Positions 43-17,641 of a DNA stretch of 42,054 bases are shown one piece after another. Source of the stretch: Patescibacteria group bacterium (GTDB taxonomy: Bacteria > Patescibacteriota > Patescibacteriia > Patescibacteriales > BM507). A program made the position numbers and the translations under genes. Location: contig JAQIDC010000064.1 of the NCBI GenBank assembly GCA_027858235.1, positions 1-42,054 on the forward strand, read 5' to 3'. Within the stretch, counting starts at the first letter, position 1. Every line of letters begins with the position of its first letter. Under the pieces are notes generated by a model. The model made no database searches. It was not told the DNA's origin and saw only the letters and a list, made by a program, of their open reading frames with translations.

Positions 43-456
43 ATGAGAAAAATCTTTTTAAAAAACCTTACAGCTTTTGCTGTGATCATGATGCTTTTGG
101 TCCCTGCTTTTGTAGTAGCGCTTCCTGCTAATGCAACAGGTCCTTTAGTGTCAAATGATTTAATGGGTAATGATGCAATTTACGACACTGTTTCAGACAC
201 CACTGGTCTAGGTAATAGAGACCCACGTGAAATCGCAGCTGCTGTAATTAGGGTTATGCTTGGATTCCTAGGTATCATCGCTGTTTTAATTATCCTGTAC
301 GCCGGATTCCTTTGGATGACTGCTGCTGGTAATGAAGACAAAATAAGTCAAGCTAAAGGTATGATGTCAGCCGGTGTTATCGGTTTAATCATTATCTTAG
401 CTGCATTCGGTATTGCTACATTTGTAATGAATGCTCTAGTAACTGCCACTGCTTAG
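43..456 (+). CDS. T4SS-type pilin-like protein 1 (VirB2/TrbC-like)
   Basis: 137 aa. An N-terminal signal peptide (about residues 1-31, ending near LPANA) precedes a short variable exported region and two hydrophobic helices (about 70-92 and 105-130). The core reads GFLGIIAVLIILYAGFLWMTAAGN followed by a charged K/Q turn and a second helix, the layout of small VirB2/TrbC-like pilins that CPR bacteria carry in tandem. The start is supported by a strong Shine-Dalgarno (GGGAGGTGA, 8 nt before ATG), much better than those of the six paralogues behind it. Probable role: inner-membrane pilin subunit of a type IV secretion or uptake machine. The function is inferred from family resemblance; no other T4SS gene is visible in the window. 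Confidence 0.8.
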   Translation: MRKIFLKNLTAFAVIMMLLVPAFVVALPANATGPLVSNDLMGNDAIYDTVSDTTGLGNRDPREIAAAVIRVMLGFLGIIAVLIILYAGFLWMTAAGNEDKISQAKGMMSAGVIGLIIILAAFGIATFVMNALVTATA

Positions 457-478
457 TGTATTAAAGCTAGTTTTAATT

Positions 479-503
479 AGTGAAAACCTCGTTGGTTTTC
501 ACT
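479..503 (+). other. Perfect hairpin between pilin genes 1 and 2
   Basis: AGTGAAAACC, loop TCGTT, GGTTTTCACT: a perfect 10-bp stem 23 nt after the stop of pilin 1. No U-tract follows, so it is not a typical intrinsic terminator. A second weaker inverted repeat (CTGTCCA / TGGATAG) follows at about 508-530. It may protect the 3' end of the first pilin mRNA or attenuate transcription into the following genes. Confidence 0.6.
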
Positions 504-593
504 ATCCTGTCCATAAATATTGTGGATAGAATAGTGAAAACAATAATTCAAGTTTTACTTGGAAATTTTTAATTATTAATAAATATACAAACT

Positions 594-1013
594 ATGTTCT
601 CTCTAAAAAATAGGGTCGCAAAATCAATTATATCCTTAATGGTTTTTTCAATGTTTATCATTCCAGCATTCCTTTTTGTTCCAGTGGTTTCAGCTGGGGA
701 CTTAACAGCTGGTGATCTCTGGGGAAACGCGGGTATCCAGACTAATGTTCAAACAGAAACAGGTCTAGGGAATAGAGACCCTCGTGAAATCGCAGCTTCT
801 GTAATTCGTGTGGCTCTTGGATTTCTAGGTATTATCGCTGTTTTAATTATCCTATATGCTGGCTTCCTGTGGATGACAGCTGCTGGTAATGATGATAAAG
901 TATCAAGTGCTAAAGATATGATGTCAGCCGGTGTTATCGGTTTAATCATTATCTTGGCTGCATTCGGTATTGCTACATTTGTAATGAATGCTCTAGTAAC
1001 TGCCACTGCTTAA
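594..1013 (+). CDS. T4SS-type pilin-like protein 2
   Basis: 139 aa, closest paralogue of the first pilin: both contain the block TGLGNRDPREIAA and end MMSAGVIGLIIILAAFGIATFVMNALVTATA-like. Signal peptide about 1-34, then two membrane helices. The last ~95 nt of the two genes differ at only one base, while the N-terminal halves are clearly diverged; this points to recent duplication or gene conversion of the 3' part. No Shine-Dalgarno is visible before this ATG. Probable pilin subunit. Confidence 0.78.
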   Translation: MFSLKNRVAKSIISLMVFSMFIIPAFLFVPVVSAGDLTAGDLWGNAGIQTNVQTETGLGNRDPREIAASVIRVALGFLGIIAVLIILYAGFLWMTAAGNDDKVSSAKDMMSAGVIGLIIILAAFGIATFVMNALVTATA

Positions 1014-1039
1014 ACTCTCAAATAAATAAAAAGAAGGCT

Positions 1040-1429
1040 ATGTCTAAAATATTTTCAATAAAACATTTACTGATAATAATCATGGCCTTCTTTTTATTCT
1101 CTGGATTTATTGCTGATTCCGCTCTCGCTTTAGATAGTGCAAAGAGAGGATTAAACACAACTGCTCAAGAAGGGTTTGATAGTCACATAACAGAGGGTAG
1201 CTCTATATCACAAACCGTCGGAAAGGTTATTGGCTATGTCCTTTCTTTCGTCGGTGTAATTTTTCTTATTTTAATAATTTATGCAGGTTTTACCTGGATG
1301 CTGGCTCGTGGGAATGAAGCTGATGTTAAAAAAGCAAAGGACTTAATGTACGATGCTATTATTGGGCTCGTTATCATCATGTCGGCATACGCAATTACTG
1401 CATTTGTGGGAAATAGTTTAGCAAATTAA
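1040..1429 (+). CDS. T4SS-type pilin-like protein 3
   Basis: 129 aa. Signal peptide about 1-30 (ends near SALA), a short exported segment, then two hydrophobic helices with the family core VLSFVGVIFLILIIYAGFTWMLARGN and KKAKDLMYDAIIGLVIIMSAYAITAFV. It uses WMLARGN instead of WMTAAGN, a subtype shared with the next gene. A weak purine stretch (AAGAAGG) lies just before ATG. Its stop is followed after one base by the next start, so the genes are co-translated. Confidence 0.78.
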   Translation: MSKIFSIKHLLIIIMAFFLFSGFIADSALALDSAKRGLNTTAQEGFDSHITEGSSISQTVGKVIGYVLSFVGVIFLILIIYAGFTWMLARGNEADVKKAKDLMYDAIIGLVIIMSAYAITAFVGNSLAN

Positions 1430-1430
1430 A

Positions 1431-1820
1431 ATGAAACTAAATATTCAAACAATTATAGCTAGTACGTTTTTCATTTTTTTTAGCATCTTCATGTGTTATA
1501 GTCCTGCTTTGGCTATTGATAAATTCAATACGAGTTTAACAGAGGCTGGTGCTGGCACTGGCCACGAGATAGTTACATCCCAACAAGCAAGTGGCCTGTT
1601 TTCAAATACGATTGGAAACGCAATTAAAATACTCCTAAGTTTTGTAGGAATTATATTTATTATTTTAATAATATACGCTGGTTATACTTGGATGTTAGCC
1701 AGAGGAAATGAAACAGAAGCCCAAAAGGCAAAAGATACTATCACAAGAGCAATTATTGGGCTTTTTATAGTCCTCGCTGCATATGCGATTACTGCCTTCG
1801 TCGGTAGATCTATTAGTTAA
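1431..1820 (+). CDS. T4SS-type pilin-like protein 4
   Basis: 129 aa. Signal peptide about 1-29 (ends near SPALA), then two membrane helices with LLSFVGIIFIILIIYAGYTWMLARGN. Same WMLARGN subtype as the preceding gene, so the pair probably arose by duplication. The ATG follows the upstream stop after a single base, with no ribosome binding site of its own, implying translational coupling. Confidence 0.77.
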   Translation: MKLNIQTIIASTFFIFFSIFMCYSPALAIDKFNTSLTEAGAGTGHEIVTSQQASGLFSNTIGNAIKILLSFVGIIFIILIIYAGYTWMLARGNETEAQKAKDTITRAIIGLFIVLAAYAITAFVGRSIS

Positions 1821-1824
1821 ACTT

Positions 1825-2292
1825 ATGAAAAAATATTTTACAAAATTATTTATTTTATTAATTGCGAGCTTTGTGTTAATGAGCACTCCTGTTTTTGCAC
1901 AAAATCTTCAGGATGCTTTTGTAGCACCGCAAAGCGATGAACCATCTACTAGCCCTCAATATGGAGGAGTATTGGAAACCGTTGCGTCTGGTGCAGGATA
2001 TGATTCTACAAATACTTTTGACTCAATGATCGGGAAAATTATCATGGCAGCACTCTCTTTGTTGGGAATTATATTTTTAATATTGTTAATTTACGCTGGA
2101 TATCTCTGGATGACTGCTGCTGGGAATGAACAGCAAGTCACAAAAGCACAATCGATGATAACCACCGCCATAATTGGCCTCGTTATTGTTCTGTCTGCTT
2201 ATTCTATATCATTCTTCGTTCTAAGCTCTCTTCAAGAAGGAGCTCTTCAAGAAACAACCACACTCAATAAAATTACAGAATCTATAAGTTAA
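1825..2292 (+). CDS. T4SS-type pilin-like protein 5
   Basis: 155 aa from the ATG at 1825. A longer in-frame reading from 1783 is rejected because it would overlap the previous gene and bury the signal peptide (MKKYFTKLFILLIASF, ending near PVFA). Two membrane helices follow (LLGIIFLILLIYAGYLWMTAAGN; TTAIIGLVIVLSAYSISFFVL), then an extra polar C-terminal tail of about 20 residues that the other copies lack. The start lies 4 nt after the upstream stop. Confidence 0.77.
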   Translation: MKKYFTKLFILLIASFVLMSTPVFAQNLQDAFVAPQSDEPSTSPQYGGVLETVASGAGYDSTNTFDSMIGKIIMAALSLLGIIFLILLIYAGYLWMTAAGNEQQVTKAQSMITTAIIGLVIVLSAYSISFFVLSSLQEGALQETTTLNKITESIS

Positions 2293-2298
2293 ATAAAT

Positions 2299-2679
2299 AT
2301 GACAAAAATTCTAAAACACATCTTCGTCGCTATATTCCTAATAGGCGTTCTCACTCTTCCTTATTTTGTATTTGCAAATCCCATGGAAGGATTAACAAGC
2401 GTCGCTACTCAAGGTGGTTATTCTGAAACAGTTTCAGATACAACATTCGCTTCAACCCTAGGAACTTTGATAGGTGTGTTTTTGGGATTTCTTGGAATAA
2501 TTTTTATAGTTCTAATGATTTGGTCAGGATATAATTGGATGACAGCTGGAGGGAATGAAGAGAAATTAACTAAAGCAAAATCAACAATCTATAGATCTAT
2601 AATAGGTTTAATAATTATTATTTCATCATATGCAATTTGGTTTTTCATTTTTGAAAGAGTAGTTAAAACGGTAGAATAA
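2299..2679 (+). CDS. T4SS-type pilin-like protein 6
   Basis: 126 aa. Signal peptide about 1-27 (ends near FVFA), short exported region with the SETVSDTT motif also seen in copies 1 and 7, then two helices with FLGIIFIVLMIWSGYNWMTAGGN and IYRSIIGLIIIISSYAIWFF. The W[AS]GYNWMTAGGN variant pairs it with copy 7. The ATG follows the previous stop after 6 nt. Confidence 0.77.
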   Translation: MTKILKHIFVAIFLIGVLTLPYFVFANPMEGLTSVATQGGYSETVSDTTFASTLGTLIGVFLGFLGIIFIVLMIWSGYNWMTAGGNEEKLTKAKSTIYRSIIGLIIIISSYAIWFFIFERVVKTVE

Positions 2680-2684
2680 AACAT

Positions 2685-3071
2685 ATGCAAGAACTTCTTA
2701 AAATAAAAAAAATATTTCTTTTTCTCTTTTCTTTTAGTGCTTTGAGTTTCTATAAGATTTCTTTTGCAATGGAAGCTCAAACTCAAGCATTTGTTGGCTC
2801 GACTGGACTCACTACTGATGTTTCAGATACAACAGCAACCGACATAATAGCATCAATAATAAAAGTATTTCTTGGCTTTCTAGGAATTATATTTATAATT
2901 CTTATTATATGGGCAGGTTATAATTGGATGACTGCTGGAGGAAACGAAGAAAAGGTTACAAAAGCAAGAACAACAATATTCAGAGCTATGATTGGGCTGA
3001 TTATTATTGTTTCGTCATATGCTATCACCTATTTTGTTTTTGGAGCACTAAACAGTTCGACTGGACCATAA
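2685..3071 (+). CDS. T4SS-type pilin-like protein 7, last gene of the operon
   Basis: 128 aa. Signal-like N-terminus (about 1-28), DVSDTTATD exported segment, then FLGIIFIILIIWAGYNWMTAGGN and a second helix ending ITYFVFGAL. Closest to copy 6. A strong intrinsic terminator begins 20 nt after the stop, so this closes the seven-gene operon. Confidence 0.77.
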   Translation: MQELLKIKKIFLFLFSFSALSFYKISFAMEAQTQAFVGSTGLTTDVSDTTATDIIASIIKVFLGFLGIIFIILIIWAGYNWMTAGGNEEKVTKARTTIFRAMIGLIIIVSSYAITYFVFGALNSSTGP

Positions 3072-3431: not shown

Positions 3432-4406
3432 TTATTTTATTCCCATTATTTTTTTAACTTTTAAATATGTTTCCTGGGCTATTGGTTTTATCTTCTTGGC
3501 TCCTGCATCTAGAATATTTCTTACTCCCCCGTCGCTGATATTATTATATTTTTCCTGAAAATCAATCAAAAAGTTTTTCACAATTTCAGCTAAATCTTTC
3601 TTAAAATCACCATAACCCCTTCCTTCATATTTTTTAACTATATCTTCAATTTTCTCATCCGTAAGTAAATGATATATATTTAAGAGATTAGATATTCCTG
3701 GTTTATTTTCTTTGTCATATTTTACAACTGCCTCTGTGTCAGTAACTGCTTTCATAATTTTCTTAACTGCTTTTTCTGGGTCGTCAGTTAGAGCAATATA
3801 ATTTAGCTCGGAGCTAGCGCTTTTGCTCATTTTACTAGATGGGTCGTCTAAGCCCATTATACGAGCCCCTTCTTTGCGAATGCTAACATCAGGAACAACA
3901 AATGTTTTTCCAAATTGGTGATTAAATCTTTTCGCTAAATTACGAGCAAGTTCTACGTGCTGTTTCTGATCTTCACCAACAGGAACAACGTCTGTATTAT
4001 ATAAAAGAATATCAGAAGCCATAAGAACAGGATAATCAAAAAGGCCCACTCCTATGTTCTCACTCTCACCCCCCTTGTCTTTAAATTGGGTCATTTTATT
4101 CAAATCAGACATCCTAGCAACTGTATTTAGAATCCAAGCTACTTCAGCATGCTCTGAAATATCTGATTGTTGGAAAATAACTGACTTTTTTGGATCAATT
4201 CCAAATGCTAAATATATTTTTGCTATTTCAATTATCTTTTTTCTAAGTTCGTCTGGCTTTTGTTTTACGGTAATGGCATGCAAATCAACAACACAAAAAA
4301 TGCTCTCATATTCATCCTGCATTTCAACCCATTGTTTTATTGCTCCGAGATAATTGCCTAAATGTAGCTCACCACTTGGTTGTACTCCCGAAAATATTCT
4401 TTTCAT
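3432..4406 (-). CDS. trpS: Tryptophanyl-tRNA synthetase
   Basis: 324 aa, full length for a bacterial TrpRS. Class I signatures are intact: the HIGH-type motif is HLGN (residues 15-18, in FSGVQPSGELHLGNYLGAI) and the KMSKS loop is at 192-196. Also visible are the family blocks SDILLYNTDVVPVGEDQKQH and the C-terminal YLKVKKIMGI. It charges tRNA-Trp in the cytoplasm. The ATG directly follows a two-hairpin RNA-like element shared with the pseudouridine synthase gene. A promoter (TTGTTT, 16 nt, TATAAT) lies upstream, giving a leader of about 75 nt. Confidence 0.95.
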   Translation of the reverse strand: MKRIFSGVQPSGELHLGNYLGAIKQWVEMQDEYESIFCVVDLHAITVKQKPDELRKKIIEIAKIYLAFGIDPKKSVIFQQSDISEHAEVAWILNTVARMSDLNKMTQFKDKGGESENIGVGLFDYPVLMASDILLYNTDVVPVGEDQKQHVELARNLAKRFNHQFGKTFVVPDVSIRKEGARIMGLDDPSSKMSKSASSELNYIALTDDPEKAVKKIMKAVTDTEAVVKYDKENKPGISNLLNIYHLLTDEKIEDIVKKYEGRGYGDFKKDLAEIVKNFLIDFQEKYNNISDGGVRNILDAGAKKIKPIAQETYLKVKKIMGIK

Positions 4407-4458
4407 ACTGACGTGTGAGTCAGTACCCGGCCTTAAATCAAAGATTTCAAGACGGGTA
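4407..4458 (-). promoter_or_regulatory. Two-hairpin leader element abutting the trpS start codon
   Basis: In mRNA sense, TACCCG (complement of 4453-4458) pairs with CGGGTA (4424-4429) and encloses a hairpin CTTG-AAATC, loop TTT, GATTT-AAG. A second hairpin ACTGAC, loop TCACAC, GTCAGT (4407-4424) touches the ATG. The same layout occurs before the gene starting at 10330, with three base pairs changed on both sides. An AAGG lies 24 nt from the ATG; if the second hairpin is looped out the spacing becomes 6 nt. Confidence 0.65.
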
Positions 4459-4488: not shown

Positions 4489-4516
4489 ATTATAGCAGGC
4501 TTGCCTCAAAAAACAA
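4489..4516 (-). promoter_or_regulatory. Promoter of trpS
   Basis: On the minus strand TTGTTT (4511-4516), a 16-nt spacer, and a perfect TATAAT (4489-4494). The predicted start of transcription near 4482 places the whole two-hairpin element inside the 5' UTR. Confidence 0.55.
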
Positions 4517-4537: not shown

Positions 4538-4573
4538 TAGACCTCGGAGGTCCTTAAAGACCTCCGAGGTCTA
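4538..4573. repeat. Double palindrome (CPR-type intergenic repeat)
   Basis: TAGACCTCGGAGGTC, loop CTTAAA, GACCTCCGAGGTCTA: perfect 15-bp stem. Each arm is itself a near-perfect palindrome (GACCTC G GAGGTC). There is no U-tract. It lies between the trpS promoter and the terminator of the GGDEF gene. Confidence 0.7.
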
Positions 4574-9616: not shown

Positions 9617-10330
9617 TTATATTATTTGATTTTTATTAATATTTTTCCATTTCCCATTTTCCAGTTTACTAAGTTTTAATTTCCCAAGAGAAATCCTAGT
9701 TAATCTTTTAACTTCCAATCCCTGAGTTGCAAACATTCGTCTGATTTGTCTTTTCTTCCCTTCAACTAAAATAATTTCAAACAATTTCCCGCCTAAATGT
9801 TTTGCGTTCTTTGTCCAAACTATTCCATCTCCTCGCCCTGAGCTTGTCGAAGGGTCTCTCCCGATATCAACCCCTTTCAGAAAATTCTTAACAATTTCCT
9901 GAATGTCTTTTCTCGCCTTATCTACTTCTATAATATATTTTTTCTCGTGCTCAAAGCTTGGGTGGGTCATCTCTTGTGCTAAATCACCATCATTTGTTAG
10001 AAGCACCAATCCCTGACTATCCTTATCAAGTCTTCCAACAATAAAAAGCCTCTCATTTGTTTTAACTAAATCAAAAACATTTTTTTCTCCTTTGAATTTC
10101 TTGGTTGTACATACATAGCCGACTGGTTTGTTTAGGATAATGTATATATGCTCTTTTTTTTCTCCAATTTTTTCATTTCCTATAAAAACATCGTCCCTTT
10201 CACCTACTCTCATCCCAAGCTCAGCCTTTTTCTTGTTTACAGATACTTTTCCACTCCGAATAAGCTCTTCTGCCTGACGGCGAGAACAATGTCCAGAATC
10301 TGCGATATATTTTTGTAAGACTATTTTCAT
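9617..10330 (-). CDS. 16S/23S rRNA pseudouridine synthase (RsuA/RluB/RluF family)
   Basis: 237 aa. N-terminal S4 RNA-binding domain (about 1-60, LQKYIADSGHCSRRQAEELIRSGKV), then the catalytic domain with ILNKPVGYVCT and GRLDKDSQGLVLLTNDGDL, Asp102 being the expected nucleophile, and the C-terminal EGKKRQIRRMF block. The exact target site cannot be told. Residues 159-168 (DPSTSSGRGD) are encoded by a repeat inserted in frame between two conserved segments. The ATG lies one base from the same two-hairpin element that precedes trpS. Confidence 0.9.
   Translation of the reverse strand: MKIVLQKYIADSGHCSRRQAEELIRSGKVSVNKKKAELGMRVGERDDVFIGNEKIGEKKEHIYIILNKPVGYVCTTKKFKGEKNVFDLVKTNERLFIVGRLDKDSQGLVLLTNDGDLAQEMTHPSFEHEKKYIIEVDKARKDIQEIVKNFLKGVDIGRDPSTSSGRGDGIVWTKNAKHLGGKLFEIILVEGKKRQIRRMFATQGLEVKRLTRISLGKLKLSKLENGKWKNINKNQII
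9836..9854. repeat. Palindromic repeat inserted in frame in the pseudouridine synthase gene
   Basis: CCCTGAGCTTGTCGAAGGG on the plus strand, an imperfect palindrome of the kind scattered through CPR and environmental genomes. On the coding strand it adds the low-complexity peptide PSTSSG without breaking the frame. Confidence 0.7.
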
Positions 10331-10382
10331 GCTTGCGTGCGAGCAAGTACCCGGCCTTATGTCGAAGACGTCAAGACGGGTA
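10331..10382 (-). promoter_or_regulatory. Two-hairpin leader element before the pseudouridine synthase gene
   Basis: Second copy of the trpS leader element. TACCCG / CGGGTA outer stem (complement of 10377-10382 with 10348-10353), inner hairpin with ACGTC, loop TTC, GACAT, then hairpin CTTGC, loop TCGCAC, GCAAG (10332-10347) one base before ATG. Relative to the trpS copy, three pairs change on both sides while outer stem and loop sequences stay fixed. AAGG is again 24 nt from ATG. Confidence 0.65.
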
Positions 10383-17508: not shown

Positions 17509-17529
17509 CATTTAGTAAATGGTGAACTG

Positions 17530-17616
17530 AGCCGGGGCTGGTTACTTGCCTGCCGGCAGGCAGGGAGCGCTTCTCTGATAAGGAAGAGGTTCATAGTTCG
17601 AATCTATGTACGCCCA
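17530..17616 (+). pseudogene. Damaged second tRNA-Ile with a palindrome in its D arm
   Basis: From 17565 the sequence is a tRNA-Ile with the same anticodon arm (CTTCT CTGATAA GGAAG) but its own, sound T arm (CATAG TTCGAAT CTATG) and 3' end TACGCCCA. The 5' half is reduced to GGGCTGGTTA: about 12 nt of the D arm are missing and a palindrome containing CCTGCCGGCAGG (about 17553-17564) sits in place of the rest. No 5' acceptor strand can pair with TACGCCC, so it should not fold as a tRNA. Confidence 0.75.
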
Positions 17617-17641
17617 CAAAACCGCCAAGGGCGGTAAATCC

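Follow-up and report, generated by a model that had tools for sequence, protein, structure and literature searches.

A two-hairpin palindromic repeat at start codons in a Patescibacteria group genome, a probable mobile DNA element

The leaders of trpS and of the pseudouridine synthase gene rluB, both on the minus strand of the window (the whole stretch of 42,054 nucleotides that was analysed), are formed by one 52-nt two-hairpin element. The two are quite probably copies of a non-autonomous mobile DNA repeat, a MITE- or REP-like palindromic element of 52–56 nt made of two adjacent hairpins.

The element in the trpS and rluB leaders

Each of the two copies ends at a start codon (Table 1), and they agree at 42 of 52 positions (BLAST E 2.3e-10). 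An earlier note on this DNA had described them as the same 52-nt leader, with an identical outer stem and three pairs changed on both sides, and coordinates and alignment confirm all of this. The outer stem TACCCG/CGGGTA is common to both, and from the trpS to the rluB copy column pair 38–49 changes from G-C to U-A, 39–48 from A-U to G-C, and 14–22 from A-U to G-C. Absent from that note are two further changes in the rluB copy, where pair 13–23 becomes a C/A mismatch and pair 35–52 becomes A/C. Both copies fold better than their shuffles, with z of −4.0 for trpS and −2.3 for rluB. As previously described, the AAGG ends 24 nt 5′ of the ATG in both leaders, removal of hairpin 2 (16 or 18 nt) leaves an AAGG–ATG spacing of 8 or 6 nt, and the frame is open through the element into the gene. 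Two more close copies, before scpA (contig C28) and holA (contig C40), both end exactly at the ATG. The TATAAT hexamer upstream of the trpS copy, found also in the same-genus genome Parcubacteria BM507, suggests that this copy is transcribed; a full sigma-70 consensus was not found upstream of it.

Table 1. Features of the two leader copies and their genes, in window coordinates
Feature	Position	Strand	Basis
Two-hairpin repeat, subfamily A, trpS leader	4407..4458	-	sequence, alignment
Hairpin 1, trpS copy (TACCCG...CGGGTA, bulged 3′ arm)	4424..4458	-	folding, alignment
Hairpin 2, trpS copy (CTGAC TCACAC GTCAG, then T adjoining ATG)	4407..4423	-	folding, alignment
AAGG, putative weak Shine–Dalgarno, paired in hairpin 1, 24 nt from ATG	4431..4434	-	function inferred only
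TATAAT hexamer upstream of trpS copy; also upstream of trpS in BM507	4489..4494	-	sequence
trpS (tryptophanyl-tRNA synthetase); start codon 4404–4406 abuts element	3432..4406	-	
Two-hairpin repeat, subfamily A, pseudouridine synthase leader	10331..10382	-	sequence, alignment
Hairpin 1, pseudouridine synthase copy	10348..10382	-	folding, alignment
Hairpin 2, pseudouridine synthase copy (CTTGC TCGCAC GCAAG, then C adjoining ATG)	10331..10347	-	folding, alignment
AAGG, putative weak Shine–Dalgarno, pseudouridine synthase copy, 24 nt from ATG	10355..10358	-	function inferred only
RluB/RsuA-type pseudouridine synthase (S4 + PseudoU_synth_2); start codon 10328–10330 abuts element	9617..10330	-	

Two other features of this part of the window were recorded. 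A palindrome, TAGACCTCGGAGGTC...GACCTCCGAGGTCTA, occupies 4538–4573 between trpS and a GGDEF gene, and a similar one, AGACGTCCGAGGTC, adjoins an IS200-like gene at another locus (L005). At 43–3071 lies an expanded tandem family, a run of seven small membrane proteins that resemble one another, each about 130 aa long with two hydrophobic segments.

Family size, structure and covariation

A covariance model built from the four subfamily A copies with the ATG left out (R1) retrieved eight further, more diverged copies from the same genome at E below 1, and across 381 genomes of the class its matches were confined to that genome. The family-wide search was made with a broad model (R2), which recognizes about 29 copies in the 1.43-Mb genome and 6 in BM507. 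Other genera of the order contain weaker copies, and at E ≤ 0.001 the model has matches in 8 of 111 genomes of the order; these counts derive from draft assemblies, one sister genome (BM507) and small numbers per subfamily. A strict sequence pattern run over GTDB genomes matched in two contigs of BM507 only, and no Rfam family was matched at gathering or permissive thresholds.

In the alignment of 18 copies on which the covariation analysis is based, the common plan is that of two adjacent hairpins in fixed order within an element of 52–56 nt. Hairpin 1 varies in sequence among copies with its pairing kept, has a CTTCG or CTTTG loop, and carries a CTA-type bulge in its 3′ arm, and hairpin 2 contains the conserved core GCTCRCAMGC in a palindrome that often extends to TGA...TCA. 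Double changes fill 59 cells versus 19.1 expected and are found in 12 of the 15 stem pairs, and the covariation score reaches 0.50 versus 0.15 when set against shuffles and slid-partner controls. The covarying two-hairpin structure proposed in the earlier note is thus real, and the covariance-model search of relatives returned what would be expected of such a family, namely many copies (11 of them before ATGs) with covariation far above controls.

Selection on sense RNA alone should favour G·U above A·C mispairs, yet the stems of the 18 copies contain 5 G·U versus 8 A·C (small counts), and the five inner pairs of hairpin 2 contain zero G·U. This lack of G·U preference counts against selection on the sense RNA and fits a strand-symmetric DNA palindrome. 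Strong covariation upstream of ATGs is by itself not evidence for an RNA switch.

Placement of copies and comparison with BM507

Eleven of the 29 copies in the genome end 0–10 nt short of a housekeeping gene's ATG, and in 11 of 11 the orientation is the same, with hairpin 2 facing the gene. Taking the gene density of the window, rather than that of the whole genome, as the null, such a concentration within 10 nt and in one orientation has P about 1e-9 under random intergenic placement; from the gaps alone, about 3% of copies would be expected within this distance and in this orientation, whereas 38% are observed. Copies of subfamilies A and B in this genome lie at true starts in 8 of 8 cases, for which P is about 2e-6 even if any noncoding ATG is counted as a target.

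Subfamily A (TACCCG...AAGGCCGGGTA) precedes trpS, rluB, scpA and holA with 0 nt to the ATG in every case, and subfamily B (CCCCG...CGGGAGAC, hairpin 2, CC and then ATG) lies no more than 3 nt before the ATG of metG, ddl, dedA and an M23 peptidase gene, and within 3 nt of that of nifU in BM507. Both subfamilies are found only at start codons, and subfamily B reads in another frame of the element than subfamily A. Subfamily C (...CGGGATGC, hairpin 2, TCAAA) stands 6–10 nt before the ATG of rpoC, nusA and rsmH; its other copies lie between rplK and rplA, after a ppsA-like gene and, in BM507, between rplC and rplD. Segments resembling a Shine–Dalgarno (SD) sequence are AAGG in subfamily A only, where it is conserved and paired in all four copies, and GGGAG or GGGATG in B and C; GGGAGAC occurs also in copies of group B′ far from starts. 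The five copies of group B′ lie within outer palindromes of the type GGATCCTGAATC...GTTCAGGATGAC or GGATTCCGGGT...CCCGGAATGAC. Group D consists of in-frame copies in tRNA-guanine transglycosylase (Tgt), the acidic tail of FtsK, the tail of a signal peptidase (in tandem) and a hypothetical acidic protein (C45), hairpin 2 being always translated as (E/D)-(S/L)-L-x-R-(D/E/N)-S; in Tgt the element yields the peptide RPATAPSGWAGELLARNS (L022 1501–1555; G000:C68:6321–6375). Copies of group E adjoin tRNA genes, at T-loop junctions.

The earlier note had named additional copies at random positions or orientations, lacking compensatory changes, as speaking against a regulatory element. Other copies do lie in ORFs, palindromes and tRNA flanks, alongside the start excess, the fixed orientation and the compensatory changes. 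Its second suggestion, a repeat family that supplies structured start sites, comes close to the best reading of these many copies and their strong start association.

The orthologues of all eleven start-adjacent genes in BM507 use the same ATG/Met and have no element in the leader (trpS was compared by eye), and BM507 Tgt lacks the inserted peptide. No copy common to the two genomes was seen at the loci compared, that is, the eleven start-adjacent genes and Tgt. Since the element is absent from all eleven orthologues, the start-adjacent copies are, as judged from sequence, lineage-specific insertions and not an inherited switch. The start codons of holA and scpA in BM507 overlap or abut the end of the upstream gene. 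Although the empty sites are known, divergence of the leaders obscures the exact left end of the insertions and any target-site duplication. BM507 would offer ready empty sites at which to gauge a GC-rich double hairpin before rpoC, nusA, metG and trpS.

Around the tRNA-flanking copies, the element is in most readable cases fused to a copied tRNA 3′ end that starts at T-loop C56, sometimes with the 5′ T-stem strand preceding it, an arrangement that insertion between T55 and C56 would produce. A tRNA gene, a spacer and then a partial second tRNA end are seen in this genome at L040 and L085 (contigs C49 and C3) and in other genomes at L087, L092, L050, L055, L058, L060, L075, L115, L116 and L117; L058 and L091 are tandem units. 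The window itself contains, downstream of tRNA-Ile(gat) at 17510–17620, a partial tRNA-Ile-like copy reaching from the anticodon arm to the 3′ end, with the palindrome CCTGCCGGCAGG before it, and BM507 has a two-hairpin element downstream of its own tRNA-Ile(gat) (L087). Small GC-rich inserts are nested within the element, CCCAAGAGCACTTTGTCGCTTCGCTCGGGCG in the hairpin 2 loop and TCCCGCCAAAGGAGGACGGG in hairpin 1 (L084, the M23 leader; L026, the ddl leader).

Mobility, translation initiation and known systems

In a mobile repeat of this kind, the hairpins may be kept through their recognition, as single-stranded DNA hairpins, by a mobilising enzyme, and subfamilies A and B would either be targeted to the junction immediately 5′ of the ATG or persist nowhere else. 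A single-strand insertion of the IS200 type would, speculatively, agree with the hairpins as well as with insertion into loops. Y1 transposases have 11 matches in the genome; the model, applied to 8 of these 11 loci, detected no element at E ≤ 10, and other palindromes are present there. One of seven GIY-YIG genes, considered as possible movers, was seen directly beside an element (contig C63) among the flanks read.

A GC-rich hairpin adjoining the AUG is normally expected to harm expression, so that a start excess calls for real targeting or benefit. The junction before the ATG may be tolerated because the gene stays intact and because self-contained hairpins leave the AUG and first codons about as open as before. 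Indeed, when the eleven leaders were folded with the element and with it cut out, openness of the AUG was on average about equal, clearly higher with the element in rluB and dedA and lower in scpA and rpoC, and the region from −35 to −16 was more paired with the element in 10 of 11 leaders. Once inserted, the element would become the last part of the 5′ UTR and structure the ribosome standby region, initiation then proceeding either via the upstream AAGG/GGAG across hairpin 2 or, as is usual among the window's genes, independently of an SD. A fuller scheme, in which the subfamilies are targeted to the pre-start junction and their relatives to T-loops of tRNA gene copies and palindrome loops, with the hairpins acting as both movement substrate and portable initiation leader, is offered tentatively and with considerable doubt. 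Start-codon junctions would give small mobile DNA a safe harbour in streamlined genomes, like tRNA flanks for other elements.

It is also possible, if not favoured, that the mobile element was domesticated as a portable split ribosome-binding site, kept at starts since its SD-like segment and hairpin 2 give efficient or better-insulated initiation. The strong start excess and fixed orientation agree with this, as do the self-contained hairpins, the AUGs of rluB and dedA that are more open than without the element, and a GGAG or AAGG that hairpin 2 would bring closer to the AUG, so that a split site in these leaders is a possibility on sequence grounds. Against it, the lineage's genes in the window are mostly without an SD (few of 39 examined have an SD-like motif, the anti-SD being intact), and in most of the eleven leaders the AUG is not more open. 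The same arrangement of SD-like segment, hairpin and AUG is known from T4 genes 38 and 25, where a hairpin between a possible SD and the AUG shortens the spacing (PMC3014915); there, function was tested in single genes, whereas here a repeat family is known from sequence in a genome where SDs are seemingly rare.

Near-random insertion, followed by selection that purges gene-breaking copies and leaves survivors in gaps, would make start codons merely tolerated sites. This is rather unlikely: it accords with the copies found in intergenic gaps elsewhere, in disordered tails of proteins and in a loop of Tgt, but it fails to predict either the observed proportion near starts (38% versus about 3%) or the restriction of subfamilies A and B to them.

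A cis-acting translational switch, as raised by the earlier note, is improbable. Hairpin 1 would hide the AAGG, a signal would open hairpin 1 and hairpin 2 would loop out, the copies together forming a lineage-specific housekeeping regulon. The AAGG conserved and paired in 4 of 4 subfamily A copies, the constant distance and orientation to the ATG, the housekeeping nature of every start-adjacent gene, the intact anti-SD and the T4 precedent of a hairpin that links SD and AUG (PMC3014915) are all in its favour. As a conserved switch, however, it is not supported: all eleven BM507 orthologues lack the element, other copies sit in ORFs, palindromes and tRNA flanks, and the mispairs are devoid of G·U bias; moreover, AAGG is limited to subfamily A (B and C carrying GGGAG or GGGATG, with GGGAGAC also far from starts), and with SDs unused by most window genes, hiding one would be an unusual means of control. 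Finally, a translated N-terminal extension conserved as the peptide TRL-D/E-V/I-FD-I/L-RPG...M is very improbable, for although all four subfamily A copies are open in frame 0 and their differences there are mostly conservative, the BM507 orthologues start at the same Met, subfamily B uses another frame, and an upstream in-frame ATG, GTG or TTG is absent at trpS, rluB and scpA, in keeping with the earlier note, which had also discounted a coding extension.

The mobile-repeat reading has partial parallels among known systems. MIRUs are short mobile-looking repeats that sit at start codons, keep a fixed relation to the gene and do it little harm (PMC12548453), and subfamilies A and B share with them an insertion at the start codon in fixed orientation. 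They differ in that a MIRU contains an ORF whose −4 overlap couples it to the gene while the present element is a double palindrome, in which a MIRU-like coupled mini-ORF overlapping the downstream ATG was looked for and is absent. Rickettsia palindromic elements (RPEs) are palindromic repeats whose in-frame presence is tolerated by unrelated proteins (PMC10969869), much like the copies in Tgt, FtsK, the signal peptidase and C45, a minority here; compared by description, RPEs are about 150 bp long and lie in ORFs in nearly half of cases, whereas the present copies measure 52–56 nt and favour start codons. REPs, including those tagged with CGTC, are short palindromes in dispersed copies whose stems covary and which lie mostly between genes, at times within them (PMC3733652), a description that applies equally here, except that two different hairpins in fixed order and start-codon subfamilies set this family apart. 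Neither a GTAG nor a CGTC end tag was present in the 18-copy alignment and copy listing, and REP-style flanking of RAYT/Y1 transposase genes was not found at 8 of 11 Y1 loci; CGTC REPs likewise lack a linked transposase (PMC3733652).

Other repeats were encountered as well. At L080 (G000:C30), two copies of the element and tandem 34-bp hairpin repeats (CCAGTGAAACAAAAAAGGTTTCACGGGATAAATC) flank Fic-like genes, and a separate repeat, TTATACAAAATTTGCTGTGACCACTCGCTACCGCTCGCAGGCCCCATCAAATTTTGTATAA, is present in three near-identical copies at L029, L031 and L045 (contigs C13, C20 and C66).
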